DNA from: Rhizobiales bacterium SYSU XM002
Lineage (GTDB): Bacteria; Pseudomonadota; Alphaproteobacteria; Rhizobiales; Beijerinckiaceae
Reading direction: 5' to 3'
Length of the DNA: 64,000 nt
Assembly: GCA_009846685.1 (NCBI GenBank)
Contig: VWVY01000001.1
Coordinates: 248,001-312,000, forward strand
Of this stretch, positions 112 through 21,870 are shown piece by piece (within the stretch, counting starts at the first letter, position 1; every line of letters starts with the position of its first letter). The notes below the pieces were generated by a model, which was given only the letters and a program-made list of their open reading frames with translations, was not told the origin of the DNA and ran no database searches. A program made the position numbers and the translations under genes.

Positions 112-495
112 TCACTTCGCCTTGCCGTCCGGCCCGAAACCCTTCAGGTAGGCAACGAGATCGGCGATCTTCTTTTCGTCCTTAAGGCCGGCATAGGCCA
201 TCTTGGTGCCAGGCACGACGCCTTTCGGATCCTTGATGTAGTTCGTGAAGGTCTCATCGTCCCAGGTCTTGCCGAATTTCTTGTTCGCGTCGGAATAGCT
301 GTAGCCTTCCGTTGTGCCGGCGGCACGGCCGAAGAGGCCGTTCAGATGCGGCCCCACCAGATGCTTGGCGCCTTCGCCGACCTGATGGCAGACCCGGCAC
401 TGGGCGAAAACGGTCTTGCCGGCTGCGGCGTCCTGTGCAGCGGCGGGAAGCGTCGATCCCACAAAGAGCAGGGCGATCGCGATCTTCCGAAACAT
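112..495 (-). CDS. Secreted class I monoheme cytochrome c
   Basis: A 127-residue c-type cytochrome. A Sec signal peptide (about residues 1-20, ending AAA-Q) sends it to the periplasm. The heme motif CRVCH is at residues 33-37, and Met99 in TKMAYAGL is the expected distal iron ligand, as in the cytochrome c2/c550 family. The length is normal for this family. I chose the internal ATG at 495 because an upstream in-frame extension would add an arginine/serine-rich, non-signal segment. It follows the lipoprotein gene by 19 bases and probably shares its sigma-54-type promoter. It is therefore a plausible soluble electron carrier between the DmsAB-like enzyme or pentaheme cytochrome and the respiratory chain. 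That partnership is inferred from position only. Confidence 0.9.
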   Translation of the reverse strand: MFRKIAIALLFVGSTLPAAAQDAAAGKTVFAQCRVCHQVGEGAKHLVGPHLNGLFGRAAGTTEGYSYSDANKKFGKTWDDETFTNYIKDPKGVVPGTKMAYAGLKDEKKIADLVAYLKGFGPDGKAK

Positions 496-514
496 GGTGT
501 GTCCTTTCTTGGGC

Positions 515-1060
515 TCAACGAGTGCGGCAGGCGACGGCGAAATCATCGATGGCGGCCTCGATCGGGCCGAGCGCGTCGATCGACACGAACAGCGGTGCGC
601 CGGTATGCCGGAAATTGAGCCGTCCGAGTGTGTAGCCGTTCGCCTTCTTGCGCTTCGAGATCGCGGGCGCGCTGATCTTCTGTTCGGCGACAATGGCACC
701 TGTCGCGAAACCGTCGCGGACTGTGAGCGCGATCGCGCCGGACTTGCCGGGCGCGTGGACCCAGAGGTCGACAGAGCAGGCCGCGCCCTTCGGAGCATTC
801 ACGGTGACCGTGCTGGTCAGGGCCGTGCCCGGAAACGGCATCGGGTTCGCGAGCACCACGAATTTCTTGCCGGAATGCGGCTTGATGGTGGACTTGGCGT
901 CGATCTGGCGCAGGCTGACATCGCCGGTCGCCGCCCATTGGCCCTTGTTCCCATTCTCGAAACCGTCGCGCACGCTGACGTAGCGCGCTTCGGCTGCCGC
1001 CGTGCATCCGACAAGGAGGGCCGCAGTGGCGAAAGTCTTTGCATAGTCGGTGATTTTCAT
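515..1060 (-). CDS. Putative lipoprotein of unknown function
   Basis: A 181-residue protein I do not recognise. The N-terminus is hydrophobic and contains a lipobox-like LVGC at residues 16-19, so it may be a lipoprotein anchored at Cys19. An ordinary signal peptide cut near AEA is the alternative. The rest reads as a beta-rich exported domain (VSVRDGFENGNKGQWAATGD, then alternating hydrophobic strands) with one Cys in mid-protein and one near the C-terminus, which could form a disulfide. No catalytic motif is visible. It is first in a two-gene unit with the cytochrome c and sits about 18 bases behind the predicted start of a sigma-54 promoter. This ties it to the molybdoenzyme locus rather than to housekeeping. 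Confidence 0.75.
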   Translation of the reverse strand: MKITDYAKTFATAALLVGCTAAAEARYVSVRDGFENGNKGQWAATGDVSLRQIDAKSTIKPHSGKKFVVLANPMPFPGTALTSTVTVNAPKGAACSVDLWVHAPGKSGAIALTVRDGFATGAIVAEQKISAPAISKRKKANGYTLGRLNFRHTGAPLFVSIDALGPIEAAIDDFAVACRTR

Positions 1061-1088
1061 TCTCAGTCTCCCGTAGCGACAAGCGTCT

Positions 1089-1104
1089 AGCAGGCGACGT
1101 GCCA
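1089..1104 (-). promoter_or_regulatory. Sigma-54 (-24/-12) promoter for the lipoprotein-cytochrome c pair
   Basis: On the minus strand the sequence TGGCACGTCGCCTGCT matches the RpoN consensus TGGCACGNNNNTTGCW except for C in place of T in the -12 block. Ten bases separate the GG and GC doublets, as required. The predicted start, about base 1078, is roughly 18 bases before the ATG at 1060. A gene for a sigma-54 activator ends only 110 bases upstream. Confidence 0.75.
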
Positions 1105-1124
1105 GCGAATGACGTGGCGGAAGG

Positions 1125-1138
1125 CTTTGAAATCAAAG
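1125..1138. promoter_or_regulatory. Perfect 14-base palindrome upstream of the sigma-54 promoter
   Basis: CTTTGA-AA-TCAAAG lies about 20 bases upstream of the -24 element. It has no T-run on the side that would make it a terminator of the response-regulator gene. It may be a protein-binding site, but activator sites are usually farther from the promoter, so the role is uncertain. Confidence 0.3.
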
Positions 1139-1214
1139 AAAAAAGAAAAGATGAGGCCGACAATCCGGCAGGCGGACTGAAAGAACGGCAGGGGATCCTG
1201 CAAAATTGGCGGAA

Positions 1215-2640
<1,426 letters not shown>

Positions 2641-2651
<11 letters not shown>

Positions 2652-4539
2652 GGGGCGTCTCCCCCAGTTCCGCATCGGCATCCGGTAGCAGGATCGTGAA
2701 CGTCGTGCCCCGGCCTTGGGTGCTGGCGACCTGGATGTCGCCGTCGAGGGATCGCACCACCGAACGGCAGATCGAAAGCCCCAGTCCCGTGCCGTGGACG
2801 CCATCAGCACGACGGCTCCAGAAGGGCAGGAAAATCGAGCGCAAGTCCTCCGGCGCAATCCCGATTCCCGTGTCCGCGAACCGCAGCGCGATCTGGCCTT
2901 CCGGCAGGCGCCGGCCCTCGATTCGGAGATGCCCGCCTTCCGGCATGGCATGGAAAGCGTTCTGGACGAGATTGATGATGACGATCCTGATGTCGCTGTC
3001 GGAAGCGAGAACGCGCAAGCCGTCCTCCATGTCTACGGTGAGGGAGACTCGCGTCTCCTCCGCCTGGAACCGAAGCAGCTTGAGAATATCGTCGATAACA
3101 TCATTGATAAGAATCAACTCCCGCTCCGGCGCGGACGGAACGCCGAGCTTGAGCAGGCTCTCGGTGATCGAAAGGCAACGGCCGACCTCGTTGCTGATCA
3201 GGTGCAGCGAATCCCCGATCGAGGCGCTGCGCCCGGCGCCGAGCGCCGTTTCCGCTTCCTGCAGGAGGATGGCGACGGAGGAGAGGGGGTTGCGGATCTC
3301 GTGCGCGACGCCGGTTGCCAGCTGGCCCAGTTCGGACAGGCGCTGCTCGTGCGAAATCTGGACGGCGGCGTCGAGATCGCGGATCACCTCGACGACCAGC
3401 GAACGGGGCGTGCCCGCTCTCTCCGTGCAGACGCGGGCGGCGTTCACCTCGACGGACATTTCCGAACCGTCTGCCCGGCGATGGGTGGCGTGGAACTTGA
3501 TGCGGGCATTCGCCTCACGCAGGGCGACAACGGGGCAGGTGGAAAGAGTTGGGACGCAGGGCTCGCTCCGGTCGTGGCTCGATCGGTAGCAGAAGGCGCC
3601 GATCTCACTGCCGTCCCGGTGCTGATGGAGATCGCGATAGGCCTGGTTCGCCAGAACGATGCGGAAGTCTTCATCGATCACACGGATACCGTCCGGGAGG
3701 GCCTCGATCATCGACTGGACGAAGCGCTCACGGGCACGGACATCGGCGAGGCTTGCGGAAAGACGGTCGGCCATGTCGTTGAACGCGCGACCGAGCGAGA
3801 CCAGTTCCTCGCCCCCCTCCATCTCGACCCGTCGCGAAAGGTCACCGGCGGCGATCGCCCGGCTCGCGTTCTGCAACTGGGCAACCGGGACGAGCACGTT
3901 CTTGCGCAGACTCAGGAATATGCCGCCGATCAGACCGAGAACCACCACCAATCCCGACCCGGCCAGCGTCAGAGCGCTCGCGAGCGCGTTGCGTCGCAGG
4001 TCTTGCGCCTCGTGATCAACGACAAGGAGGCCGTTGACCGGGCTCGCCGTGGCATCACCGTGGCACTGTCCGCATTCCGCCCGGTTGGCGACCGCCTTGA
4101 TCGAACGGATAACCGGTTGCGGATCGATGATGCCACGGGGGAGGAGATCGGACCGCTCGATCACGGTCCTGCCGTCCCACGCGCAATCCGGGCAAAGTTC
4201 GGGCTGGCCGAGATCGAACCGGCGAGCAAGAAGATCGGGGCGCGAGGCGAAGCGGACCTCGCCGGTCGGGTTGAGGATCATCACCGCGCTGATCCCGCTC
4301 TGTTGACCGAAACGCTCCACGATCTCCCGGAGGCCGGGAATGTCGCGCTTGAGCATGGCGTTTTCGAGCGAAACCTGGAGCAGGATGTTGATGCGCGTGG
4401 CGGCATCGCTTCGCTGTTCCTGCAACCGCATATGATAGAGCGAGACGATCCCGATCAGGAACAGCAAAGAGATGACAAGGCTGTTCAGGACCAGTGAACG
4501 TGTAACGATAGCGAAGAGGCTTCGCTGCACCTTGGCCAT
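2641..4539 (-). CDS. Membrane histidine kinase with a periplasmic heme-c motif and Cys-containing PAS domain
   Basis: A 632-residue sensor kinase. TM1 is at about 17-36 and TM2 at about 188-210, enclosing a periplasmic domain of roughly 150 residues. That domain holds a Cys pair (CPDC, 116-119) and a c-type heme motif CGQCH (156-160) just before TM2. HAMP (about 211-265) and PAS (about 272-385) domains follow. The PAS domain carries Cys317, Cys328 and Cys335 in a CYRSSHDRSEPC...CPV pattern, suggesting a metal or redox site. The kinase core has His413 in AHEIRNPLSS, an N box (NLVQNAFHA), DTGIGI and GTGLGL. Covalent heme attachment in the periplasm would make it a redox, gas or electron-flow sensor; the ligand is not known. 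It lies 2 bases after the small gene upstream and is coupled to the regulator downstream. Confidence 0.93.
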
Positions 4540-4541
4540 TG

Positions 4542-5003
4542 CTACTGCCGCACGCTGATCGACGCGAGCTGGGTAAGGAACGATTCCGGCGGCAACTCAT
4601 GCGGCAGCAATCTGTGCAGGTTCGGATGCGGCGCAACCTCGCGCCCGAAGAGCGCAAGTGGAAGGATGACGAGACCCTCACGCTGCCGTTCGAGGAACGC
4701 CTCGAACCATGCCGATCGCTCGGCAGGCGACTTGCAGGCCAGAAGGGCCTCGCCGTTCTGCAGCACGATGCCGCTACCGTCTGTATGTTCGGCAACGGCG
4801 GCTTCGAGCGCGGAAAGCGGCAGCTTGTGAGCCTCCATACGCATCGGCGCGAGATAGGTCTTGCGGAAATCGAGGCAGGTGCAACCCAGCACATCTGCGA
4901 GGTCGGACACGAGATCGGGCCGGTAAGCGGGAAAATCGAGAATATGGCTGCCGGACCCGGCAGTCAGAATTCGATCCGTCAATCGGTTGTGCCAGCTGTT
5001 CAT
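4542..5003 (-). CDS. Conserved-context protein of unknown function
   Basis: A 153-residue protein I cannot assign. It has no signal peptide or membrane segment, so it is probably cytoplasmic. It contains a hydrophobic ILDFPAYRPDL segment, two nearby Cys (GCTC, about residues 40-43), and Leu/Glu-rich helices. The ATG at 5003 overlaps the stop of the ferredoxin gene as ATGA, which fixes the start and implies translational coupling. The longer in-frame upstream reading would run deep into the ferredoxin gene. Its place between the ferredoxin and the kinase suggests a role in assembling or signalling for the molybdoenzyme system, but nothing in the sequence shows what it does. Confidence 0.75.
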   Translation of the reverse strand: MNSWHNRLTDRILTAGSGSHILDFPAYRPDLVSDLADVLGCTCLDFRKTYLAPMRMEAHKLPLSALEAAVAEHTDGSGIVLQNGEALLACKSPAERSAWFEAFLERQREGLVILPLALFGREVAPHPNLHRLLPHELPPESFLTQLASISVRQ

Positions 5004-5989
5004 GAATCGCCCAGAACCTGAAAGAGATTGCGGGCATGTGGCCGCACCGTGCAGATCCGGCACAGACCGTTCCGACCGGATCCGCTTTCTTGCAATTGAT
5101 AATAAGGAGCGCCGCAGGATCGGCATCGACCTGGATCAAGGCGCAAGACGATTTCCCGCGCAGGGCCGGGCGTTTCGAGGCGGATGGCTTCCCGATCGCA
5201 CAGATCGAGGCAGAGCTGGCAACCGGAACAGTGGAGAGGGACGATCCGGTAGGCGTTCTGTGGCAAGCGGTCGCGGACAAGGGCTTCGTCAGGGCAGATG
5301 CCGGTGCAGGCGTCGCAGGCGACGCAAAGCGCGGGATCGATGACGGGGCTGTGATAGGCGAGCCTTTCCGCTGCGGGGACTTCCGGTTCGCGCTCCGGGG
5401 TGATCAGGGCAGAAAACAAGCCCCGGCGTCGCCGGTCGATCTGGTCAGCATCGGCGCGCGCCTTCGCCAACGCGGCACGATAGGTCTCATCCTTGCGATG
5501 AATGACCAGCCGCACGGGCGCCACCCCTCGGCTCTTTCGGATCGCGACGTGCAGTGCATGCGCATGTTCAAGCGGCTTGAGGCCCGCGTCGCGCGGACAG
5601 GTTGCGCAATCGCTGGTGAGGATATGGAGTTCGCGAACACCTTCTTCTGCAAGGGAATCGAGGTCGCGATGGCCGAGTGCGTTCCGGCAGGCAAGGGTGC
5701 TGCCGTCGGCGTCGGGCGTTTTGCTGCAGGCGGCCCAGGCGGAGCCACGCATTCGCCCCGAAAAAAGGATCGTCAACGGGCGTTGAAGGGTGATCGCATC
5801 GCGGGGGCAGGCAGGAACGCAGAGGCCGCAGCCATCGCAGGAGGAGGGATCGAGCGAGAGCCCGTCGTCATCGAGAATAATTGCCTTTCCGGGGCAGGCG
5901 GTAACGCAGGCCTCGCAACGCGCAAAGGGGGCCAACGCATGCACGCACATGCCGGCGTCGATGCCCGGAAGGGCGCGCGTGGCATCCAT
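5000..5989 (-). CDS. Multi-cluster 4Fe-4S ferredoxin-like protein
   Basis: A 329-residue iron-sulfur protein with no signal peptide. Four cluster motifs are visible: C25/C28/C32 (with C15), C51/C54/C57/C61, C222/C225/C228/C232 and C254/C257/C260/C264. A final pair of CxxC motifs (289-292, 310-313) resembles a zinc ribbon or rubredoxin-like knuckle. The middle (about 80-200) holds further Cys (ACSK, LACR, DCATCP). The start is taken as ATG 5989, 2 bases after the chaperone stop; GTG 5995, which overlaps that stop, is possible. It is probably a cytoplasmic electron-transfer or maturation factor for the DmsAB-like enzyme. Similar proteins accompany several DMSO-reductase-family loci, but their function is not settled. 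Confidence 0.85.
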   Translation of the reverse strand: MDATRALPGIDAGMCVHALAPFARCEACVTACPGKAIILDDDGLSLDPSSCDGCGLCVPACPRDAITLQRPLTILFSGRMRGSAWAACSKTPDADGSTLACRNALGHRDLDSLAEEGVRELHILTSDCATCPRDAGLKPLEHAHALHVAIRKSRGVAPVRLVIHRKDETYRAALAKARADADQIDRRRRGLFSALITPEREPEVPAAERLAYHSPVIDPALCVACDACTGICPDEALVRDRLPQNAYRIVPLHCSGCQLCLDLCDREAIRLETPGPAREIVLRLDPGRCRSCGAPYYQLQESGSGRNGLCRICTVRPHARNLFQVLGDS

Positions 5990-5991
5990 CG

Positions 5992-6753
5992 TCACCAACT
6001 GGGCGCCGCGCCCGGCAGGAAACGCGAGGCTTCTTCCTGAGCCTTGGCACGGCGACGCTGCTTCTCTTCCTCGATCGGTTCGAGGTCGATCAGCGGCATG
6101 TCGGCAAGCGAGACGAGTTCTTCGCGCAGTCGGCGCAGCACGCTGACCGTCACCAACGCGAGCCCGGCATAGAACTGCGTCTGGCAACGCGTCGAGACGC
6201 GTGCAGCAAAGGGCTCGATCCAGCGCAGCACATGGTGATCCATGAAGGCGGCAGCGTCTTTCGGCCCGTAATCGAGCGGATGCCCGAGCAGATGCGCGAT
6301 GAATTCGAGCTGATAGGCGAGGTGATCGTCCGAGCGCACACGCCAGTTCCGGGCTTCGAGACCGTAATGAGCATACCATTTGCGGATCTCGAACATCGGC
6401 TCCTGGAGGATCAGTCCCTCCGGATCGAGCCATACGCATTCGAGCGGCGAGACCGAATACGTATGGTTGAGATAGATCGCCGCGAAATCGGCATGGAGCG
6501 CGTCGAGCGTCTCGGGTGTGCCGGAGCCTTCGGCGCCCTCAAGCGCGTCGGCGAGAATGTCGAAGGCGGAGAGGTCGGCTGGGTCGTCCCCCTTGAGCGC
6601 GAGGCAATGGGGAAAGCGGGCCTCCCTGAGGCCAGCAAGAAGCGCCGCATCCACCTCGCGGTCGTGCAGGCGCATCAGCAGCCGGATATCTTCCGCGCAG
6701 GCAGCCAGCCGCGCCTGCTTCTCGGGCCCGATCTCCCGAACGGCGACATTCAT
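5992..6753 (-). CDS. TorD/DmsD-type molybdoenzyme chaperone
   Basis: A 253-residue all-helical cytoplasmic chaperone of the TorD family. These proteins bind the Tat signal of a partner molybdoenzyme and hold the apoprotein until cofactor insertion. The family pattern is visible: FAAIYLNHTYSVSPLECVWLD, then the acidic PMFEIRKWYAHYGLEA stretch, then the hallmark DDHLAYQLEFIAHLL. The C-terminus is charged (EEEKQRRRAKAQEEA). ATG 6753 overlaps the stop of the DmsB-like gene as ATGA, which fixes the start and indicates coupling. The client is almost certainly the Tat-exported catalytic subunit encoded just upstream. Confidence 0.93.
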   Translation of the reverse strand: MNVAVREIGPEKQARLAACAEDIRLLMRLHDREVDAALLAGLREARFPHCLALKGDDPADLSAFDILADALEGAEGSGTPETLDALHADFAAIYLNHTYSVSPLECVWLDPEGLILQEPMFEIRKWYAHYGLEARNWRVRSDDHLAYQLEFIAHLLGHPLDYGPKDAAAFMDHHVLRWIEPFAARVSTRCQTQFYAGLALVTVSVLRRLREELVSLADMPLIDLEPIEEEKQRRRAKAQEEASRFLPGAAPSW

Positions 6754-7415
6754 CCAACCTTCCCCTTCGAATGCGGCACGAAGACGATCGACGGATTGGT
6801 GAGTTCCGGATCGGCCATGTTGCGCACCTGACGGACAACCTCGTCGTTGGCGCCGCGTGCCTTGGTCTCGTAAGTCCCAGCGCGGAGCTGGTCGATCGGC
6901 CCGATATCGAGCACGCGCATCATGCAAGCCATCACGCAGTACGGCTTGCGGCCGGCATCGATCTCGTCGACGCACATGTTGCATTTGACGACCGTGTTGG
7001 TCTCGGCGTTGTACTGCGGTGCGCCGAACGGGCAGGCGGCCTCGCAGCGCCGGCAGCCGATGCACAGGGTCGAGTCGATATCGACGATGCCGTCCTTCTT
7101 GCGCTTGAAGATCGCTCCGGTCGGGCAGGTCGGCAGGCAGGCCGGCTCGGCGCAATGGTTGCAGGACATGTTGATCTTGTAGGCGAACACCTCCGGATAG
7201 GTGCCGCCCTCGACATATTGCACGCGCCGGAAGCGGGGCCCCGGCGGCAAGCCGTTCTTGTCCTTGCAGGCGATCTCGCAGGCGCGGCAGCCGATACAAT
7301 CGACGTTGTTGTGGATGAAGCCGAGCTGCGTATCCGGCACCACCGGCACATAGTGCTCGCGCTTCTTGCGCTTGACGGCCTCTTTGATCGCGGCCTTGTC
7401 CTTTTCGTTCGCCAT
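6750..7415 (-). CDS. DmsB-like 4Fe-4S electron-transfer subunit
   Basis: A 221-residue iron-sulfur subunit with 16 Cys in the classical four-cluster arrangement: C40/C43/C46/C50, C85/C88/C93/C97, C118/C121/C124/C128 and C145/C148/C160/C164. This matches the beta subunits of DMSO, nitrate and tetrathionate reductase families. It has no signal of its own and would be carried to the periplasm bound to the Tat-exported catalytic subunit, which precedes it by 15 bases. The usual third partner, a DmsC/NrfD membrane anchor, is not encoded in this locus. Electrons therefore probably leave or enter through c-type cytochromes. The lysine-rich N-terminus (about residues 5-20) is slightly unusual. Confidence 0.95.
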   Translation of the reverse strand: MANEKDKAAIKEAVKRKKREHYVPVVPDTQLGFIHNNVDCIGCRACEIACKDKNGLPPGPRFRRVQYVEGGTYPEVFAYKINMSCNHCAEPACLPTCPTGAIFKRKKDGIVDIDSTLCIGCRRCEAACPFGAPQYNAETNTVVKCNMCVDEIDAGRKPYCVMACMMRVLDIGPIDQLRAGTYETKARGANDEVVRQVRNMADPELTNPSIVFVPHSKGKVG

Positions 7416-7430
7416 GATCGAAGTCCCCGA

Positions 7431-9995
7431 TTAGAGATCGCGCCGGAACACGTGGCTCCGGGAGGTTGCGAGCTGATCCCAGCCCGGCTTGTGCTCAAGC
7501 GTCGTCTTGCGAATGGCGCAGAGCACGGTGTTGTAGGCGAAGGCGCCGGCAGGGCTCGGCTCGTCCAGCGTCAGGAAGTCCGGGTTGCCGGCGCGATCGA
7601 CGCCGTTCTTGTCGAGGTCCATCCACGCACCTTCGTGCAGCACGGCGACGCCGGGCATGCAGCGCTCGGTCGCATAGACCGGGACCACGACGCGGCCGCG
7701 GTCGTTGTAAAGCTCCACCACATCGCCTGTTTTCACGCCGAGCTTGGCGGCATCGGCGGCGTTGAGCGTCACCTCCTGCTCGAAGGTTTCGCGCAGCCAG
7801 GGGATGTTGTTGAAGATCGAATGCGTCCGCCAGCGCGGATGCGGCGAGATGAGGTGGAACGGGAACTGCGCCGTCTTCGGCGAATTGAGCGATTCCCACG
7901 GCTCGATCCACTTCGGGATGTAGGGGATCTCGTAGCCGTATTGTGTCTTCGTCCAGTCCGTGATCTGCGCGAGCTGGGTCGAGAAGATCTCGATCCGGCC
8001 TGAGGCTGTCTGGAAGGGGATACCCTTCTCGATCTGGTCCTTGAAGGCAACATGCGGCTCGTGCAGGTGGAACTTGTAGATGCCGCGCTTCTTGAATTCC
8101 TCCCAGCCCATCGTGACGGGGTGGGCGGCATTCCCCATCACGCGACCTTCCCACCATTCGCGCAGGTAGGCTTCGTCGACATTGTCGTCGATGTGGAAAT
8201 AGTCGCGGTTGGCCTTGGGGTTGAACGCCGGGCCGAAGCCGAGTCGGTAGGCGAGTTCGGTGAAGACCTGAAAATCCGACTTCGACTCGCCGAGCGGCTG
8301 GATCACCTTCGGTCGGTGGATGTAATAGTGGCCTTTGTACCAGGGCAGTGCGACGTCGTGCCGCTCGAAGTGTGTGGCGATCGGCAGCAGCACGTCGGCC
8401 CAGATGCCCGAGGGCGTGATGGTCGAATCCATGCACACCACGAGTTCGAGCTTCTTGATCGCCTCGATTTCCTTGTTGATGTTGGTGAGCTGGTTGAACC
8501 AGTCCGATCCCTGCCAGAAGATTCCCTTGATGTTGGGGATCACGCCGTCGAGGTTATCCTGACGCGGCCAGAGGCCGACCTCCTCGCGCTTCACGTTCGG
8601 ATAGTTGAGCACGCAATGCGCCCAGCGATCCGACTTGATCGAGGCATACCAGACATTGGCATACTGGTCGTAGGGGTAGGCGACCGCTTCCGAGTGGAAG
8701 GCCTTGCCGACGCCCTCCGCGCAGCCGCCGAGCACGCCGATATTGCCGGTCATCGACTGCAGAGCGGCGGCCATGCGGTTGTATTGCTCGCCATAGGCGT
8801 TGCGGCCCGGTGCCCAGCTCGCTTTGAGCGCGGCAGGCTTGGTGCCGGCATACATCCGGGCAAGCTTGCGGATATCATCCGCCTTCACGCCGCAGATCGG
8901 CTCGGCCCATTCGGGCGTCTTCGGCGTCTTGTCATAGGTGCCGAGGATGTAGTCCTTGAAGTTCTCCTTGCCCTTCGCCCAATCCGGCATCGTGCCCTGA
9001 TCCATGCCGAGCACGAAGCGGTTGATGAAGTCCTGATTGTGGAGGTTCTCCGAGAAAATGACATGCGCCATCGCCGCCATCATCGCCGCGTCCGTGTTCG
9101 GCTTGATCGGGATCCACCAGGCATCGTAGGCAGCGGCTGAGTCCGTATATTGCGGATCGACGAGCACGAACTTGCAGCCGCGCTGCTTCGCCATGCGCAT
9201 ATAGTAGAACGTGTTGCCGCCGTGGAAGGTGTATGCCGGGTTCCAGCCCCACATGATGATGAGCTTGGAATGCGCGAAGGCATCGTCCTCGTTGCCGTCC
9301 TCGATCGTGCCGAAGGTCATGCGCGAGGAGAAGGTTGTCGCCTGATAGGAGGGCACCGACCACGAAGACGTGCGGCAGCCGAACATACCGAGAAAGCGGG
9401 CAAGCAGCCCCTCGATCTGATCTGACTTGTGCAAGACGCCGTAGGAGGCGCCGGCGTAGGACTGATCAAGGATGGCCTGCGGGCCGTACTTGGTCTTCAG
9501 TTCGACCATCTTGTTGGCGACGAATGTCAACGCTTCATCCCACGAGACGCGCTTGAACTTGCCTTCGCCGCGCGGGCCGACGCGCATCATCGGATAGAGC
9601 AGGCGTTCGGCCGAATAGAGCCGCGCGCGGTAGGAGCGACCGCGCAGACAGGCGCGGACTTGCGGCTCCTCCTCGGTATCCTTGCCGAAGAAGCCGTCCT
9701 TCTGGTAGCGGCCATCGTCGGTCGAAAGCCGGACGATCACGTCGCCTTTCTTGTGCGCCACCAGCATGTGGCGCGAACCGCAGTTGTGCGCGCAGCTCGT
9801 GACGACGGTTTCGAGTTCATCGTCCTTCGGATAGGGCTCGTAGGCGAAGGCCTTGGCCTCGTTGGTCCCGCCGAGCGGCAGCAACCCTGCGGCGCTGCCG
9901 GCCGCTGCAAGCTCAAGCAGCCGGCGGCGGGAAAGGGGCAACGCGCCGGAAAGCGGGTTGGTGTCGAAAGGCTCGGTGCTGGCGCGCCGTGTCAT
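7431..9995 (-). CDS. Tat-exported DmsA-like molybdopterin oxidoreductase, catalytic subunit
   Basis: An 854-residue molybdopterin (bis-MGD family) oxidoreductase. The twin-arginine signal is SRRRLLELA at 22-30, followed by an Ala/Gly hydrophobic stretch. It is closest in pattern to DmsA: QVRACLRGRS (about 112-121), YPMMRVGPRGEGKFKRVSWDEAL (as two shared blocks), and a C-terminal domain with LISPHPRWRTHS. The N-terminal Fe-S site is C68-x3-C72-x3-His76...C116, so the usual third Cys is His. The molybdenum ligand is probably a Ser in the WSVPSYQ region (about 211-217). ATG 9995 is supported by AAGGAG 6 bases upstream, overlapping the stop of the cytochrome gene. The substrate could be an S- or N-oxide or another oxyanion, or the enzyme could run oxidatively; the sequence does not decide this. 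Confidence 0.93.
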   Translation of the reverse strand: MTRRASTEPFDTNPLSGALPLSRRRLLELAAAGSAAGLLPLGGTNEAKAFAYEPYPKDDELETVVTSCAHNCGSRHMLVAHKKGDVIVRLSTDDGRYQKDGFFGKDTEEEPQVRACLRGRSYRARLYSAERLLYPMMRVGPRGEGKFKRVSWDEALTFVANKMVELKTKYGPQAILDQSYAGASYGVLHKSDQIEGLLARFLGMFGCRTSSWSVPSYQATTFSSRMTFGTIEDGNEDDAFAHSKLIIMWGWNPAYTFHGGNTFYYMRMAKQRGCKFVLVDPQYTDSAAAYDAWWIPIKPNTDAAMMAAMAHVIFSENLHNQDFINRFVLGMDQGTMPDWAKGKENFKDYILGTYDKTPKTPEWAEPICGVKADDIRKLARMYAGTKPAALKASWAPGRNAYGEQYNRMAAALQSMTGNIGVLGGCAEGVGKAFHSEAVAYPYDQYANVWYASIKSDRWAHCVLNYPNVKREEVGLWPRQDNLDGVIPNIKGIFWQGSDWFNQLTNINKEIEAIKKLELVVCMDSTITPSGIWADVLLPIATHFERHDVALPWYKGHYYIHRPKVIQPLGESKSDFQVFTELAYRLGFGPAFNPKANRDYFHIDDNVDEAYLREWWEGRVMGNAAHPVTMGWEEFKKRGIYKFHLHEPHVAFKDQIEKGIPFQTASGRIEIFSTQLAQITDWTKTQYGYEIPYIPKWIEPWESLNSPKTAQFPFHLISPHPRWRTHSIFNNIPWLRETFEQEVTLNAADAAKLGVKTGDVVELYNDRGRVVVPVYATERCMPGVAVLHEGAWMDLDKNGVDRAGNPDFLTLDEPSPAGAFAYNTVLCAIRKTTLEHKPGWDQLATSRSHVFRRDL

Positions 9996-10005
9996 CTTGC
10001 GCTCC

Positions 10006-10944
10006 TTATTTTCCGGACGTTGCGTAACGGGGATCGGACTTGGTCGGCCGCGATTTTGCCCAGTCGGGCGTATCGGTCGGCATGTCCGGCCAGGGATTGC
10101 GGGGGTAGGGATAGGAGACCCGGTACCAGGCACGCCCGCCGTGGCAGCCGTAGCAGGTATCGGACGATTTCTCGGCTGCCTTCTCGATCCCGTCCGCCTT
10201 GAGATAGGTGACGTGGTGCCGGTTGGTCCGGATATTGGCGTGGCAGGTCAGGCAACCGTTCGGCGTGCCTTCCGGTTCCATGTCAGCGCGGATCTCGTGC
10301 CACGGACCGGGAAGATCCATTGTATCCTTCGGGAAGCTGCCGTGGCACTTGAGGCAGGTCTCGCTCGGGTTCACCCGCTTGCGCAGCGTGAAGGGCGGGC
10401 CACCATTGTTGGCGGTCAGATCCTTGGTCGAAACCGTGACATGCGGCGATTGCTCGCGCGGATCGTGCCCCTGATGGCAGAACTTGCAATCGAGATTCAT
10501 CACCTGCTTGGAAAGCGGTGATTGCAGGTGACGCCAGTGGAAGCTCTCCTGCTTGCCGGTATAGGTCTCCAGCGTCTGATACCAGGCGAGGACATCGTCC
10601 GCCTTCTGGCCGGCCTGGGAGGCGGCGCGCGGCTTGTCCTTCAGAATTTCCTGATGGCAGATGAGGCAGTCAGCCGGCTTCGAGGCGTCGATCGCCGGTT
10701 TGAAGTGGATCGGGTGCCAGCGCCCGGCCTCGTAATCGCCGGCGAGCGCCTTGCGGGTCTGCTCGTCGAACGCCTTCATGGCGTCGGAGCGATCGGCGGG
10801 GAGCGACTTTGCGGCAGGCTGGGCCTTCGTCGGCGGGGCGGGCGGATTCTTGCCCTGCGTCCACGCGCCACCTGCAAAGACATGAATGAAGGCGGCCGAC
10901 AAGCCCGCTGTCACGAGCAGTGCTGGAAGACGTTTCGGTTTCAT
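10006..10944 (-). CDS. Pentaheme cytochrome c
   Basis: A 312-residue multiheme cytochrome with five CxxCH motifs: CLICH 93-97, CKFCH 153-157, CLKCH 197-201, CLTCH 231-235 and CYGCH 264-268. Many extra His residues (for example HWRH, NRHH, HGG) could be distal ligands. An N-terminal hydrophobic segment (about 7-24) is either a signal peptide or a single membrane anchor, followed by a Pro/Ala/Lys-rich linker (31-50). The heme spacing is irregular, so this is not a NapC/NrfH-type tetraheme. The gene ends where the ribosome site of the catalytic subunit begins, so the two are tightly co-translated. It most likely exchanges electrons with the DmsAB-like complex, taking the role that DmsC plays in E. 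coli. Confidence 0.93.
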   Translation of the reverse strand: MKPKRLPALLVTAGLSAAFIHVFAGGAWTQGKNPPAPPTKAQPAAKSLPADRSDAMKAFDEQTRKALAGDYEAGRWHPIHFKPAIDASKPADCLICHQEILKDKPRAASQAGQKADDVLAWYQTLETYTGKQESFHWRHLQSPLSKQVMNLDCKFCHQGHDPREQSPHVTVSTKDLTANNGGPPFTLRKRVNPSETCLKCHGSFPKDTMDLPGPWHEIRADMEPEGTPNGCLTCHANIRTNRHHVTYLKADGIEKAAEKSSDTCYGCHGGRAWYRVSYPYPRNPWPDMPTDTPDWAKSRPTKSDPRYATSGK

Positions 10945-11029
10945 GGTCTGCCCGCTTTCAGAAATTCGCTGGCGTGTAGGGAGAGGCGGGGGCTGTGGCC
11001 CCCACCCGCGTTTTCGACGTTCGGAAGGA

Positions 11030-11716
11030 TTACGAACGGCCCGGAACGGTCCACTGCGTGCAGACCCAGCCCTGGCCACCGCCAAAGCCGCCCATGCCGG
11101 ACATGCCGCCCATGCCGGACATTCCCGACATGCCGCCCATGCCACCCATACCGGACATGCCGCCCATGCCGGACATTCCCGACATGCCGCCCATGCCACC
11201 CATACCGGACATGCCGCCCATGCCGGACATTCCCGACATACCGCCCATGCCACCCATACCGGACATGCCGCCCATGCCGGACATTCCCGACATACCGCCC
11301 ATGCCACCCATACCGGACATGCCGCCCATGCCGGACATCCCCGACATGCCGCCCATGCCACCCATACCGGACATGCCGCCCATGCCGGACATCCCCGACA
11401 TACCGCCCATGCCACCCATACCGGACATGCCGCCCATGCCACCCATACCGGACATGCCGCCCATGCCGGACATGCCGCTCATTGACGGACGGAAGCTCCA
11501 CTGAGTGCAAACCCAGTTGCCGTTGCCAGACATTCCCGACATGCCCCCCATACCGGACATGCCCCCCATGCCGGACATGCCGCCCATGCCGGACATACCG
11601 CCCATGCCGGACATACCGCCCATGCCGGACATGCCCTGCTGCTGCGCGAGCGCGCCGCCGGCGAGGGCCAGGCCACCAACTACAATCGCGCTCATCAGTT
11701 TGCTGCGCATTCGCAT
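11030..11716 (-). CDS. Secreted Met/Gly/Ser-triplet repeat protein
   Basis: A 228-residue exported protein of extreme composition. A signal peptide (about 1-25, cleaved near ALA-QQQ) is followed by five MSGMGG units, then a spacer NGNWVCTQWSFRPS. Next come seven copies of the 18-residue unit MSGMSGMGGMSGMGGMGG (the last ends in FGG) with one 9-residue half unit, and a closing GQGWVCTQWTVPGRS. About every third residue is Met, and the motif WVCTQW occurs twice, once on each side of the long repeat block. Met-rich periplasmic stretches are known to bind Cu(I) and to resist oxidants, so metal or redox binding is a reasonable guess. No family assignment is possible. It sits between a small secreted protein and the pentaheme cytochrome in the same orientation. 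Confidence 0.85.
   Translation of the reverse strand: MRMRSKLMSAIVVGGLALAGGALAQQQGMSGMGGMSGMGGMSGMGGMSGMGGMSGMGGMSGMSGNGNWVCTQWSFRPSMSGMSGMGGMSGMGGMGGMSGMGGMGGMSGMSGMGGMSGMGGMGGMSGMSGMGGMSGMGGMGGMSGMSGMGGMSGMGGMGGMSGMSGMGGMSGMGGMGGMSGMSGMGGMSGMGGMGGMSGMSGMGGMSGMGGFGGGQGWVCTQWTVPGRS
11084..11482 (-). repeat. Coding tandem repeat, 54-base unit, about 7.5 copies
   Basis: Head-to-tail 54-base units encode the 18-residue Met/Gly/Ser repeat (residues 79-213). A sub-period of 9 bases (three codons) is visible throughout. Units differ by only a few bases (for example CATTCCC against CATCCCC), so the array looks recently amplified and could vary in copy number between strains. Confidence 0.9.
11543..11632 (-). 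repeat. Coding tandem repeat, 18-base unit, 5 copies
   Basis: Five head-to-tail 18-base units encode MSGMGG (residues 29-58) immediately after the signal peptide of the Met-rich protein. They are separated from the long array by the first WVCTQW motif. Confidence 0.88.
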
Positions 11717-11750
11717 CGTTTCTCTCCATTGTGTTTGCTGCGACCAAAGC

Positions 11751-11792
11751 GTGGAAAGTCTGGCTGCAGTCCGATATGCCGGGACTTTCCAC
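11751..11792. promoter_or_regulatory. Inverted repeat with 10-base arms upstream of the Met-rich gene
   Basis: GTGGAAAGTC (11751-11760) pairs with GACTTTCCAC (11783-11792) across 22 bases. It lies in the 133-base gap before the Met-rich gene. A second tight repeat, GAGGAGC-CT-GCTCCTC, is at 11802-11817. Neither has a T-run, so mRNA processing or stability structures or a protein-binding site are more likely than termination. Confidence 0.45.
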
Positions 11793-11849
11793 CGGCTGAT
11801 CGAGGAGCCTGCTCCTCAATTCACGTGCGACTTCTGCCGCTCCGGGGGC

Positions 11850-12170
11850 TCAACGAGCCGGAGCGTGCAGCCGTCGGATGTCGTAGGGGCCCGTGGCGCC
11901 GCGCCGCGTGAAGGGCGTGTACCAATCGCCTTGATGGTCGAGCCACAGGAGGGATTGCGGGTAAGGTTTGATGACACCCGTCAGCGCGCGCTGATACCAA
12001 GCCTGGTCGTGTGCAACCTGAGACAGTCGCGGAGCTTTTTCCGGACGCTCCGATGGCGCTATTCCGCCGACGACAGTTTGCGCCAAGGCGGCTCCCGGCA
12101 GGAGGAGTAGCCCCAACCCCAGCGCCGCCGCGGCTTTCGCTGAACTTGCCCTTGTTCCGGTGTGTTGCAT
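11850..12170 (-). CDS. Small secreted protein of unknown function, first gene of the molybdoenzyme operon
   Basis: A 106-residue protein I do not recognise. It has an N-terminal signal peptide (about 1-30, hydrophobic LGLGLLLLPGAALA, cleavage near ALA-Q). The mature part is short and aromatic-rich (QAWYQRALTGVIKPYPQSLL, WLDHQGDWYTPF) and has no Cys. ATG 12170 is preferred over the in-frame codon at 12203 because it begins directly with the signal peptide and lies about 18 bases behind the predicted sigma-54 transcription start. Being first in the unit, it is likely made in step with the enzyme. A periplasmic or accessory role is an inference from position. Confidence 0.7.
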   Translation of the reverse strand: MQHTGTRASSAKAAAALGLGLLLLPGAALAQTVVGGIAPSERPEKAPRLSQVAHDQAWYQRALTGVIKPYPQSLLWLDHQGDWYTPFTRRGATGPYDIRRLHAPAR

Positions 12171-12198
12171 GTCCGAACCCCATGTTCGAACAAGGGGT

Positions 12199-12214
12199 AG
12201 CAACGCCTATGCCA
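12199..12214 (-). promoter_or_regulatory. Sigma-54 (-24/-12) promoter of the molybdoenzyme operon
   Basis: The minus strand reads TGGCATAGGCGTTGCT. It matches TGGCA and TTGCW of the RpoN consensus with the exact 10-base GG-to-GC spacing. The predicted start near base 12189 is about 18 bases before the first gene. No competing minus-strand sigma-70 promoter is obvious here. The regulator that would activate it is encoded at the far end of the same gene run. Confidence 0.8.
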
Positions 12215-12530
12215 CCGAGGGTGATCGGTTAATTGATTGATAATACGAAGGAAAACACAACCTTGGGATTCAACGTTTTCGCAGTTCTGCCGATTTGACA
12301 GAAACGACGTGACAGGCTGGCAAGCCGTTCGGCGGCACGTGGCGCAACCTCCAAAAGCACTGTGACGGCGACTTTGTCGGTCTCTGGTCGATCAGCGCGC
12401 TGCATACAGAATAAAGGATAGGGAATATAATCCTGAGGCTGGGGCCAAATTCAGCGAATCTTAACGCGGCAAGGAGAATTTACCGATGCAACTCAAGGTA
12501 TTAGTAATGCCTTATTGATTGGAGCGCTCC
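12215..12530. other. Divergent intergenic region between molybdoenzyme operon and chemoreceptor
   Basis: About 315 bases without a gene. It should contain the upstream activator sites for the sigma-54 promoter and the plus-strand promoter for the chemoreceptor. A TATAAT lies at 12426-12431, but no good -35 is present at 17 bases. A weak dyad, TTCTG-N9-CAGAA, lies near 12280-12300. A GGAG at 12521-12524 serves the chemoreceptor start. I see nothing else of note. Confidence 0.5.
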
Positions 12531-14600
12531 GTGAAGAATCTCACGATCCGTCAGATACTCGGAATTTTCATTCTCATCCCCCTTGTTTCCGGTCTTCTCT
12601 CGCTCTGGCAGGCAGCGCCGCCGGCCCTGGACGCGATGTCGCATGCCAAGGTTATCGAGCGTGGGGTGACGGTGGCGCGCGCGGCCGGCGATCTCGTGCA
12701 TGAGTTGCAGAAGGAGCGCGGTGGCTCGGCCGGTCTCGTCGCGGCGACGGAAGGGCGCGCTGAACACCGCAACCGCGTCGCGCGCCAGCAGGAACTGACG
12801 GACAAGGCGGTCGAAGCCTTTCAGGACGTGCTGAAGGCCGCGAACGCCGACAGCACCGTCTCGAAGCACGTCTCCCGTCTTTCCAGCGCTCAGGACAAGA
12901 TGGTCGATAACCTGAAGGTCGTGCGTGAGAAGGTGCTGACAAGTTCAATTGCAGCGCCGGAGCTGGTCTCTTTCTATTCGGCGGTGGTCAACGACCTGAT
13001 CGATGGCATCGAGGCGTTGAGTTCGGGCACGCAAAAGGACGAGGTTCAGGCGGCGAAACATGCGCTGGACGTGATCATCGTCGCCAAGGAATACGCCGGT
13101 CTCGAACGCGCGACCGGCAATGCGTTGATCGCCGAAGCTGGTGCGAACGTGAATCTGCGCGAAAAGCTCATCGCGCTGGCCGGGCTGCATGATCGCCACT
13201 TCGACCAGTTCATCCGGTATGGAGGCGACTCGGCCAAGGCGATGGCGGAGAAAGCCATCGGCAAAGGCCTTCGCGAAAAGCATCTGGCAGCCCGTCTCGA
13301 ACTGGTCGAGGGAACACGCGCCGGAACGGCGCCGGCAGTCAGTTCATCGGATTGGTGGAATTTGACGACGCAGCGGATCGATGGGCTCAAGGCCATCGAA
13401 GGCGAGATCATCGGTCGCCTGCAGGCGTTGAGCGCGCAAGATGCCGTCGAGGCGCGCGGGGCGCTCATCCGGATGATCGCGATCCAGATCGGGATCATGG
13501 TATTCGGCGTGATCGTGATCTTCGGGATCGGCGGTACGCTTTCCAAGGCGATCCGCCGTGCCGCGAACGCGCTCGAGCAATCGATGCGCGGTGAGACCGA
13601 TGTCGAGATGCCGCCGCCGATGTCAAACCACACCGAGGTCGGGCGTATCTCGAATGCCGTCGGCCAGTTCATCGAGGCAGCGCGCGAGCGGCAGGAACTG
13701 GTCCGCCAGCGCGAGATCATGAGCGAGGAAGCGAAGGAAGCACGGCGCGGCGCGCTGCAGACGATGGAGCGCGAATTCAACCACGCGGCGGGAACCGCGA
13801 CGGAGTCGCTCGAACAGGCGGCCTCGATGCTGAACGAGAAATCCTCCTCGATGCTGGCGACCGTCAATGCCGTCCGCGAGGCGCAGGACGAGGCGCACGC
13901 CGCAACGGAAGGCTCGCTCGTCATCGTTGACGAGGTCACGCGCCTCTCGGATGAATTGTCCAAATCGATTGCCGAGATTGCCGAGCAGTCGGGCCGAACG
14001 GCGCAACTGACGCAGGAAGTGCAGGGGAGGGCCGAGGAATCGCGCCAGTCGGCGGACAGGTTCCGGGAGGTGGCTGGCGCCATTGCGACGATCATCGACC
14101 TCATCAACGCAATCGCTAGCCAGACCAATCTCCTCGCGCTCAACGCGACCATCGAGGCAGCGCGCGCCGGTGAGGCCGGCAAGGGTTTCGCTGTGGTCGC
14201 GGGCGAAGTAAAGGGTCTCGCCGCGCGCACCATCGAGGCGACGCGGACAATCGAGACGCGCGTGTCGGAGTTGATGGAGATTGCGCAGGCCGCGGCGCAT
14301 CAGGCTTCGGCGCTCTCGCAGGATGTCGGCACGATCCAGGGGCTGAACTCGGCGATCGCTGCGGCGGTGCACGAACAGCATATGACGAGCGAAGGGTTCG
14401 GGCAGTCGATCCACACGCTCGCCGATACCGTGCGGGCCATCGGCGAACAGGTCAATTCGATCGCCCGTCTCGGTGCCGACGCCCATGCTTCGGCGGTTTC
14501 GGTTCAGGATGTAGCGAACGAGATGGAGCGGACAACTTCGACGTTGGCCGAGACGCTGCCGGAGATCATCGCCGAAACCGGCCGCAAGATTGCGGCCTGA
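12531..14600 (+). CDS. Methyl-accepting chemotaxis protein with a NIT (nitrate/nitrite-sensing type) domain
   Basis: A 689-residue chemoreceptor. After TM1 (about 8-28) comes a periplasmic all-helical domain with the NIT hallmark [15 protein letters not shown] and a second conserved stretch around [17 protein letters not shown]2 (about 315-337), a HAMP domain and a long signalling coiled coil follow. The coil has the conserved hairpin tip ([33 protein letters not shown]). No C-terminal CheR-binding pentapeptide is seen. I chose GTG 12531 because GGAG lies 6 bases upstream; a TTG at 12519 is in frame. NIT domains are proposed to bind nitrate or nitrite, but many members have unknown ligands. 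It is divergent from the molybdoenzyme operon and could report the same or a competing electron acceptor. Confidence 0.92.
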
Positions 14601-14612
14601 GGAGACATCCCG

Positions 14613-14638
14613 GAGCCGGCGCGGCGACGCGTCGGCTC
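14613..14638. terminator. Hairpin between convergent genes
   Basis: An 11-base stem (GAGCCGGCGCG with CGCGTCGGCTC, one wobble pair) is closed by a GCGA tetraloop. It lies between the ends of the chemoreceptor and the transketolase C-subunit gene. There is no T-run on either strand, so it may end transcription weakly or protect 3' ends. Confidence 0.45.
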
Positions 14639-14641
14639 AAC

Positions 14642-15655
14642 TTACAGCCACGCCTTGATGCGTCTGCAGATGGCCTCGCGCGAGATGCCGTAGCGCTCGT
14701 GCAGGGTCGGAAGGGCACCCGCGTCGAGGAACTGGTCGGGCAGGGCGATATGCCGGAACTTCGGCGCGACGCCGTTGAGCAGGAAATCGCGCGCGACCGC
14801 CTCGCCAAGCCCGCCGATTTCGGTATGGTTTTCCGCCACCACGACGAGGCGGCCTGACTTTGCGGCTTCGCGCCGGATCGTCTCCACATCGAGCGGCTTG
14901 ATCGTCGGGCAATGGAGCACGGCGACGCCGATCCTATCCTTCTCAAGCTCCTTTGCCGCCTCGAGCGCGCGCATGGTGAGCAGGCCGGAAGAGATCACCA
15001 GCACATCGGCACCGTCGCGAATGATCTGTGCCTTGCCGAGCTGGAATTTATAGCCGTATTCATCAAGCGCCAGCGGCACATTGCCGCGCAGGAGGCGCAT
15101 GTAGACCGGCCCCTTGTGCGCGGCGATGGCCGGTACCGCCTGTTCGATCTCCAGCGCGTCGCAGGGGTCGATCACGGTCATGTTCGGCATCGCCCGGAAC
15201 AGCGCGAGGTCTTCGGCTGCCTGATGGCTCGGCCCGTAGCCGGAGGTGAGGCCAGGCAGGGCGCAGACGATCTTCACGTTGCGGTCTTCCTCCGCGATCG
15301 TCTGGTGGATGAAGTCGTAGGCCCGCCGCGAGGCAAAGACGGCATAGGTGGTCGCGAACGGGGTGAAGCCTTCGCTCGCAAGGCCGGAGGCCGCGCCGAA
15401 CAGAATCTGCTCCGCCATGCCCATCTGGTAGAAGCGGTTGGGGAATTCTTTCGCGAAGATATGGAGGTCCGTATATTTCGAGAGGTCCGCCGTCATCCCG
15501 ACGATGGCGGCATCCTTGCGCGCGACCTCGACAAGGGCATGGCCGAACGGCGCCGGTTTGGTCGGCTGGCCCTCGGCGGCGATCGAAGCGATCATCGCCG
15601 AGGTGGTGAGGCGCGGCTTGCCGGGCGTCGTTTGGGAGGGAGTTTTCGGCTTCAT
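14642..15655 (-). CDS. Transketolase family, C-terminal subunit
   Basis: A 337-residue protein corresponding to the pyrimidine-binding and C-terminal domains of transketolase. The conserved Glu that activates thiamine diphosphate lies in YQMGMAEQ (about residues 90-97); later blocks include TSGYGPSHQAAEDLALFR and VVVAENHTEIGG. It forms a working enzyme only with the N-terminal subunit encoded upstream. ATG 15655 overlaps that gene's stop as ATGA. Split transketolases in alphaproteobacteria often serve specialised sugar or sugar-alcohol pathways (for example apulose-type substrates) rather than the pentose phosphate pathway. The substrate here is not evident; the SDR gene in the same operon points to a polyol or ketose route. 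Confidence 0.93.
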   Translation of the reverse strand: MKPKTPSQTTPGKPRLTTSAMIASIAAEGQPTKPAPFGHALVEVARKDAAIVGMTADLSKYTDLHIFAKEFPNRFYQMGMAEQILFGAASGLASEGFTPFATTYAVFASRRAYDFIHQTIAEEDRNVKIVCALPGLTSGYGPSHQAAEDLALFRAMPNMTVIDPCDALEIEQAVPAIAAHKGPVYMRLLRGNVPLALDEYGYKFQLGKAQIIRDGADVLVISSGLLTMRALEAAKELEKDRIGVAVLHCPTIKPLDVETIRREAAKSGRLVVVAENHTEIGGLGEAVARDFLLNGVAPKFRHIALPDQFLDAGALPTLHERYGISREAICRRIKAWL

Positions 15656-17263: not shown

Positions 17264-17352
17264 CTCGTCCCATCCTGTTCCTGATCCGGGCCCGAGGGCC
17301 GGAAGCAACGCGAGGGGACGTTAGATCGAGCGCTTTTGCAAATGGTCGTTTT

Positions 17353-17366
17353 TCAACATAAATTGA
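17353..17366. promoter_or_regulatory. Dyad in the SDR-LysR divergent region, possible LysR site
   Basis: TCAA-CATAAA-TTGA is a short dyad in an AT-rich stretch between the divergent genes. LysR boxes usually follow T-N11-A; this one is T-N12-A, so the match is imperfect. A related TTCA...TTGAA pair lies at about 17374-17393. Confidence 0.28.
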
Positions 17367-17456
17367 GAGAAATTCATGAGTGATGGTACTTGAAGCGCAT
17401 TTTCTGCATGAAGAGCTGCGCGGGCGGAGCCGGCACATCTCAAGGGATATCGAACG

Positions 17457-19129: not shown

Positions 19130-19189
19130 CCGGGTGAGAGCGAACACTAGGTTGGTCCGATCCTCCCTTTACCGTCGCAAGGATCCGGC

Positions 19190-20455: not shown

Positions 20456-20477
20456 GGCCCGGCGTGGTCGGCCACGT

Positions 20478-21848: not shown

Positions 21849-21870
21849 GGCAGCGCGTCCCGAGGCGGTT

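Follow-up and report, generated by a model that had tools for sequence, protein, structure and literature searches.

A conserved, apparently mobile gene cassette encoding a DmsA-like molybdoenzyme, a pentaheme cytochrome and a methionine-glycine repeat protein

Gene content and control of the locus

The DNA analysed here is a stretch of 64,000 nucleotides from Rhizobiales bacterium SYSU XM002 (assembly GCA_009846685.1, contig VWVY01000001.1, positions 248001-312000; contig C1 of genome G000), which is called the window throughout. Near one end it carries the genes for a DmsA-like molybdoenzyme, a pentaheme c-type cytochrome and a secreted methionine- and glycine-rich (Met-Gly) repeat protein, and the same gene set recurs as a conserved, apparently mobile cassette across many Proteobacteria. 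In the window the locus consists of twelve genes, all on the minus strand, which span positions 112-12170 and are closely packed with short gaps or overlaps (Table 1). They follow each other in the order g12, Met-Gly protein, pentaheme cytochrome, catalytic subunit, iron-sulfur (FeS) subunit, TorD-type chaperone, ferredoxin, g5, sensor kinase, sigma-54 regulator, g2 and class I cytochrome c. Overlaps occur between the FeS subunit and chaperone genes (6750-6753), between the ferredoxin gene and g5 (5000-5003) and between the kinase and regulator genes (2641-2651). The genes named in an original prediction made from the DNA letters alone were found open on this strand, with the overlaps and the protein families that had been assigned to them. 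At the limits used, g12, the Met-Gly protein, g2 and g5 gave no match in Pfam or NCBIfam.

Table 1. Coordinates of the genes and promoter-like sites of the locus in the window.
Feature	Position	Strand	Product or remark	Basis
sigma-54-type -24/-12 site TGGCATAGGCGTTGCT	12199..12214	-	44 bp before g12	site search
g12	11850..12170	-	secreted protein, 106 aa	matches no family
Met-Gly repeat protein	11030..11716	-	228 aa	open reading frame and composition
pentaheme c-type cytochrome	10006..10944	-	312 aa, signal peptide	signal peptide read off sequence
catalytic subunit MoA	7431..9995	-	854 aa, twin-arginine (Tat) motif SRRRLLEL	profile match and alignment
DmsB-like FeS subunit	6750..7415	-	221 aa, without signal peptide	profile match
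TorD/DmsD-type chaperone	5992..6753	-	253 aa	Nitrate_red_del/TorD family match
4Fe-4S protein (ferredoxin)	5000..5989	-	329 aa, without signal peptide	family match
g5	4542..5003	-	153 aa, between ferredoxin and kinase	matches no family
sensor kinase	2641..4539	-	632 aa, PAS/HAMP	family match
sigma-54-dependent response regulator (activator)	1215..2651	-	478 aa	family match
second sigma-54-type site TGGCACGTCGCCTGCT	1089..1104	-	before g2	site search
g2	515..1060	-	secreted protein, 181 aa	matches no family
class I cytochrome c (c-550/CycA-like)	112..495	-	127 aa	family match

The locus had been predicted to regulate itself, and the promoter-like sites support dedicated regulation. Of 37 loci, 34 have a sigma-54-type site, defined as a score of at least 12 of 15.5 against the general consensus, in the 300 bp that precede g12, as against 7.6% of shuffled regions. 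A stricter form of the pattern occurs six times on both strands of the 64 kb, including the sites before g12 and before g2 and one inside the regulator gene. The right edge of the locus in the original prediction, 12214, coincides with the start of the site before g12. Sigma-54-type sites also precede g12 and g2 in the near relative L009 (g2 site at 13181), the only locus outside the window with a match to g2; g5 is matched in only 12 of the 84 loci described below. The sensor kinase contains a CGQCH motif at residue 156, flanked by two predicted membrane helices (residues 7-25 and 184-202). A single CxxCH motif is the rule in the kinase alignment (43 of 45 sequences; one of the others has two and one has none), and the protein is regarded as a putative periplasmic sensor with a c-type heme. 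To the right of the locus, the opposite strand carries, from 12519 onwards, a gene whose translation resembles a chemotaxis receptor.

Recurrence of the cassette and its methionine-rich partner

A pattern scan of GTDB contigs returned 343 stretches, 322 of which encode relatives of the catalytic subunit. The best 80 were kept and joined by four loci from a scan of 100 related genomes. Three of the resulting 84 loci are exact double fetches (L089/L009, L091/L046 and L092/L055), so that the 84 loci represent 81 distinct ones and the 85 catalytic subunits 82; counts based on 40, 37 or 45 rows contain none of L089-L092. The high share of stretches that encode relatives and the recurrence of the gene set around them indicate that the locus is more than a chance arrangement. 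The search for the cassette in other genomes, which had been proposed with the original prediction, thus upheld the gene set as real and showed that it is not a one-off, since much of it is shared by these loci. Named hosts among the matches listed include Ca. Thiodiazotropha, Sedimenticola, Thermopetrobacter, Rhodovulum imhoffii, Zhengella, Azonexus and Filomicrobium. Most labels among these matches are proteobacterial (alpha-, beta- and gammaproteobacteria), and metagenome-assembled genomes labelled 'Clostridia' and 'Desulfobulbus' also occur.

The core of the cassette is kept closely. The pentaheme gene lies upstream of the enzyme gene on the same strand in 83 of the 84 loci and the FeS subunit gene downstream of it on the same strand in all 84; a TorD gene was found in 80. 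A ferredoxin gene follows on the same strand in 53 loci, one of which has an upstream copy besides. A kinase is present in 46 loci; 29 of them have its gene after the enzyme gene on the same strand, 16 before it on the opposite strand and one in another arrangement. Matches to g12 occur in 39 of the 84 loci; where enough upstream DNA is available, tblastn found it in 37 of 40, and 31 aligned sequences share the residues G36, P39, R42, P47, G65, P69, W83, P86, F87, Y96, D97 and R99. Many contigs are cut, and a missing gene is therefore no evidence of absence. Several further genes recur as neighbours (in L010, L016, L022 and others). One for a secreted protein of 270 aa without family assignment was found in 16 loci, one for a thioredoxin-NHL-repeat protein in 19 and one for a monoheme cytochrome c of 130 aa in 20. 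In L022, a tandem second set of pentaheme, catalytic and FeS subunit genes (16793-20947) adjoins the first. The catalytic subunit of this second set, at 73% identity to that of the window, diverges more than any other clade member in the alignment and keeps the histidine motif described below.

The distribution of the enzyme is patchy. Among 100 related genomes there were 5 carriers, and 2 of these, one of them this genome, are among the 17 genomes of the genus; a phylum-wide sample of 398 genomes contained 4 carriers. In plasmid records, the best match is 81% identical to the catalytic subunit and the next one 37%, a drop that marks the clade as well set off. The best match lies on pEJ01 of Rhodobacter xanthinilyticus, a plasmid typed as conjugative, on which positions 6143-17125 (L125, NZ_CP017782.1) encode g12, the Met-Gly protein, the cytochrome, the catalytic and FeS subunits, TorD, the 4Fe-4S protein, the kinase and the regulator. 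The patchy distribution and the plasmid copy together fit horizontal transfer. The cultured R. xanthinilyticus with pEJ01 offers a practical test organism.

The most specific partner of the enzyme is the Met-Gly protein, which the original prediction had listed without giving it any weight. Its predicted mature part of 203 aa contains 56 methionines, 90 glycines and 32 serines and neither histidine nor lysine, aspartate or glutamate; the residues form M-S/G-G repeats, and a WVCTQW motif occurs twice. An open reading frame (ORF) with at least 12% methionine lies within 4 kb upstream of the enzyme in 36 of the 40 loci with at least 2.6 kb of upstream DNA, and in 27 of the 44 loci with less. Elsewhere in the loci, 6 such ORFs were counted in 1.58 million strand-bases; a further 44, which run against the genes in the upstream DNA, are regarded as repeats read backwards. 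In L044 and L046 the repeat is interrupted by runs of N. At the genome level, a four-methionine DNA pattern was counted 50, 38, 28, 99 and 26 times in the five enzyme carriers among the 100 relatives, and no count among the remaining 95 exceeded 3. In the phylum sample, the four carriers had 50, 66, 26 and 13 matches and none of the 394 non-carriers more than 6; the low counts in non-carriers presumably stem from GroEL tails. A cut of at least 10 matches, chosen after the counts had been seen, thus separates exactly the enzyme carriers (5/5 vs 0/95 and 4/4 vs 0/394), in two samples that overlap in the carriers G000 and G081 and in some non-carriers.

Such a protein could in principle bind Cu(I) or Ag(I) through its spaced methionine motifs and be linked to the enzyme by metal stress or metal supply, a reading that is held to be very improbable. 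The MxxM spacing does resemble methionine-only copper sites. Many molybdoenzymes of Escherichia coli are reported to be induced by oxidative stressors that include copper (PMC12096835). Among the cassette families identified, however, there is no copper protein (no dedicated search was made), and the CxxCH motif of the sensor suggests sensing by heme rather than of copper.

The catalytic subunit and its electron-transfer partners

The catalytic subunit scores 620 bits against TIGR02166 (dmsA_ynfE), below the cut-off of 777.7, which none of seven further genomes exceeds either. It scores 232 bits against TIGR03479 (type II DMSO (dimethyl sulfoxide) reductase family; cut-off 984.75) and has a serine where the type II ligand sits. 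Within the clade the median pairwise identity is 80% and the lowest 73.7%, with 342 of 854 alignment columns invariant, and the identity to E. coli DmsA is 36%. In a comparison with E. coli DmsA, YnfE, YnfF, BisC and TorA and three plasmid DmsA proteins, 16 clade members formed a separate group (support 100/100) beside the six DmsA/Ynf proteins (98/97) and BisC plus TorA (100/100). The branching order among the three groups is weak (83/52) and the outgroups are long. The tree placement proposed for the catalytic subunit thus puts it outside all eight reference proteins; judged by these DmsA, Ynf, BisC and TorA sequences, it and its close relatives appear to form a separate clade.

By alignment, Ser216 is the predicted molybdenum ligand; it is kept in 85 of 85 sequences and aligns with the serine of DmsA, Ynf, BisC and TorA. 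Tyr180, likewise kept in 85/85, is matched by a tyrosine in BisC and by none in DmsA, YnfE, YnfF or TorA. This tyrosine lies in the SYGW motif of BisC and DorA, which has been tied to sulfoxide reduction (PMC7402097); of that motif, half is kept as SYAG, with the tyrosine in 85/85 and the tryptophan replaced by glycine. The cluster motif reads C68-C72-H76-C116. Its third FS0 cysteine is replaced by His76 in 85/85 sequences, in contrast to a cysteine in all six DmsA/Ynf proteins aligned, and the other three cysteines are invariant; His76 would be a ligand of an FS0-type cluster. The score under the cut-off, the separate clade and the histidine in the FS0 motif led to the rejection of an ordinary DmsA. 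A structure model of the catalytic subunit was poor (predicted local distance difference test, pLDDT, 57.5) and was not used.

The FeS subunit (197.3 bits against TIGR02951 dmsB; cut-off 214.1) has the 16 cysteines for four 4Fe-4S clusters in 85/85 sequences. As predicted, a pentaheme cytochrome stands in the place of an anchor: it has five CxxCH motifs (as do 82 of 83 aligned sequences) and scores below the NapC/NirT cut-off. Its AlphaFold2 model was modest (pLDDT 65.8) and gave no useful fold match in the PDB (best E 9.2).

The predicted lack of a quinol anchor was upheld. The whole genome gave no match to NrfD (PF03916) or NapC/NirT (PF03264); DmsC (PF04976) was not searched genome-wide. 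In the 84 loci (48 with enough flank), no same-strand ORF with at least five predicted membrane helices was found from 3.5 kb before to 4.5 kb after the enzyme, on a scale on which DmsC-type controls score 6-8 helices. An anchor gene just outside the window, which had been named as a finding that would speak against the prediction, was also looked for, and none was found; past the left edge, the translations read as peptide chain release factor 3, an amidase and transporters. A weak TorC match in L030 falls within its kinase region. In L046 (Thermopetrobacter), the other strand next to the cassette (18199-22517) encodes another kind of molybdoenzyme along with a protein of which one stretch is DmsC/YnfH-like.

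Cytochrome c1 was present in all eight genomes checked. Class I cytochrome c matches occur in 33 of the 84 loci and within 5 kb of the enzyme in 31, and in R. xanthinilyticus (as a six-heme protein) and L072 a class I, monoheme cytochrome is fused to the pentaheme. These neighbours and fusions and the cytochrome c1 argue for exchange with the cytochrome c pool, in a direction that they do not fix. Electrons could also run outwards, from a thioether or another reduced sulfur compound through the pentaheme and cytochrome c to an oxidase. This oxidative role seems improbable; it has on its side the adjoining or fused class I cytochromes and the genome without a quinol-side partner (NrfD, NapC). 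Moreover, many hosts are sulfur oxidisers, as judged by their names and by one report (PMC11237559), and the serine-ligated PgtL and RhL are described as hydroxylating, so that the group does not consist of reductases alone (PMC10100899). However, the nearest serine-ligated relatives, DmsA, DorA/TorA and BisC, are reductases according to the same source, and an oxidative enzyme would leave the Met-Gly protein without a role.

Comparison with known systems and possible functions

The gene set had been predicted to be unlike known systems, which holds against the five DmsA/Ynf loci compared. The cassette shares with DmsABC and YnfEFGH a Tat-exported, serine-ligated catalytic subunit, a DmsB-type FeS subunit and a TorD-type chaperone, but a DmsC anchor is present in all five of those loci and none lies in or beside the locus of the window; the cassette adds the pentaheme, the Met-Gly protein, g12, the kinase and the regulator. 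The DmsEFABGH system of Shewanella presumably resembles the cassette in a DmsA/DmsB pair served by a multiheme cytochrome without DmsC, and presumably differs in being extracellular, with the decaheme DmsE and the porin DmsF. No porin was identified in the cassette, and no search aimed at porins was made. The perchlorate reduction island (PcrABCD, PcrPSR, MRP, YedYZ) differs in its type II PcrA, which is aspartate-ligated like the Pcr, Clr and Ser enzymes in general; we take its FeS subunit and chaperone to be further points of likeness. It is nevertheless a close functional parallel that qualifies the predicted novelty, with a molybdoenzyme, a multiheme cytochrome, a kinase/regulator pair and a methionine-rich peptide (MRP), as reported (PMC4623255). 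DorA, BisC and TorA share the serine ligand, and BisC also Tyr180, while BisC and TorA are without the FeS-cluster motif and the FeS subunit that the cassette enzyme has. The pentaheme has a precedent in TorCAD, where the pentaheme c-type cytochrome TorC is described as serving a molybdoenzyme (PMC11727998).

The function tentatively preferred, with a probability of about 0.4, is that of a cytochrome-c-linked, serine-ligated sulfoxide reductase of the bis(molybdopterin guanine dinucleotide) (bis-MGD) type that re-reduces a sacrificial Met-Gly protein. The enzyme would work in the periplasm and be fed by the cytochrome bc1/cytochrome c pool, not by quinol through an anchor. Electrons would pass from class I cytochrome c to the pentaheme, the four-cluster FeS subunit, the FS0-type cluster with its histidine ligand and finally molybdenum. 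The secreted Met-Gly protein would be a sacrificial sink for envelope oxidants such as hypohalous acids, peroxides and nitrogen oxides. The methionine sulfoxide formed in it would be the substrate of the molybdoenzyme, which may also reduce small DMSO-like sulfoxides, and the heme-c sensor kinase and the sigma-54 regulator would turn the operon on.

In favour of this proposal are the invariant Ser216 and Tyr180, the restriction of high Met-Gly repeat counts to genomes with the enzyme, the cytochrome c1 and the adjoining or fused class I cytochromes, and the lack of a same-strand polytopic ORF near the enzyme. It also draws on reports that DorA (PMC7402097) and BisA (PMC10653797) reduce protein-bound methionine sulfoxide, that hypochlorite induces dmsA of E. 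coli, whose DmsABC reduces methionine sulfoxide (PMC12096835), and that perchlorate reducers dispose of hypochlorite through a methionine cycle in the periplasm, made up of the methionine-rich peptide and YedYZ (PMC4623255). The distribution of the alternative reductase MsrP cuts both ways. MsrP is absent from two Thiodiazotropha and below the cut-off in Zhengella, but it reaches the cut-off in five of eight genomes including this one (contig C10), where a second methionine sulfoxide reductase is not needed.

Several other points weigh against a sulfoxide reductase of this kind. Cytochrome c is, by potentials, a weak donor for sulfoxides, and a bis-MGD active site would have to admit a long repeat protein. 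The SYGW motif is a weak pointer, as it is half kept and DmsA reduces methionine sulfoxide without it. L064 and L081 keep the enzyme without a methionine-rich ORF found within 4 kb upstream, and two loci have a possible quinol-side gene on the other strand a few kb from the enzyme, namely a DmsC/YnfH-like stretch in L046 (18409-19230) and a TorC-like stretch in L079 (17090-17596). DorA itself was reported to reduce only 1-2 of 6 methionine sulfoxides in casein (PMC7402097). In both L064 and L081, of which L081 is labelled Ca. Sedimenticola endophacoides, g12 and the enzyme genes are present and no methionine-rich ORF was found between them.

The main competing explanation, a serious one although the odds are against it, is a respiratory reductase for a small oxyanion or an S- or N-oxide (iodate, bromate, chlorate, selenate, DMSO or trimethylamine N-oxide), in which the Met-Gly protein is not the substrate of the enzyme and, like MRP in perchlorate reducers, serves only to remove reactive by-products, for example hypohalous acid. 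Donors at the level of cytochrome c suit high-potential acceptors, and many relatives are named as marine symbionts among the matches listed. Not all hosts are marine, though: one is labelled 'fen', and Azonexus and Rhodocyclaceae are known from other habitats. The molybdenum-ligand position holds serine and not the aspartate of the Pcr, Clr and Ser enzymes. Chlorite dismutase (Cld) gave no match in any of the eight genomes, which speaks against this explanation and led to the rejection of Cld-type chlorite chemistry. On the other hand, the gene make-up resembles the perchlorate island (PMC4623255), and the oxyanion reading is kept alive by reports that DmsA-type enzymes of Shewanella reduce iodate and bromate (PMC11302344; PMC9468665).

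A wider form of the sulfoxide reductase proposal, which is rather unlikely as a whole, would see the cassette as a mobile, self-contained methionine redox cycle. A single operon would supply both an extreme methionine polymer, to be sacrificed to oxidants, and the molybdenum reductase dedicated to it, which is fed by cytochromes and has a Cys3His cluster, and would in this way couple oxidant scavenging to respiration. The Met-Gly protein would then act as a rechargeable buffer against oxidants, or even as an electron acceptor in the solid phase.

Neither the gene set nor the Met-Gly protein was found described among the open-licence literature matches listed, and the cassette is, as far as could be found, uncharacterised; it is a variant of DmsA-type enzymes, with the partner protein as the surprising part. 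A relative may nevertheless be familiar under another name. In lucinid clam symbionts, a gene annotated as DMSO reductase-like is reported to be among the most highly expressed (PMC6872982), with a name given by annotation and a substrate described as unverified (PMC8090883), and dmsAB are reported near a soxY copy (PMC11237559). In Ca. Thiodiazotropha endoloripes the clade member is the best dmsA-family match (626 bits vs 218 for the next), and on this ground the highly expressed 'DMSO reductase' of these symbionts is probably a member of the clade.

Sulfur-oxidising symbionts and sediment bacteria thus carry, under the annotation DMSO reductase, an enzyme from a system for which no tested substrate was found, and the exclusive pairing of enzyme and Met-Gly polymer turns its function into a concrete hypothesis that is cheap to pursue. 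If the hypothesis is true, the enzyme would have an FeS ligand set not found in the six DmsA-type relatives aligned, and the cassette would represent a second, bis-MGD route for the recycling of sacrificial methionine, beside that of MsrP and MRP.

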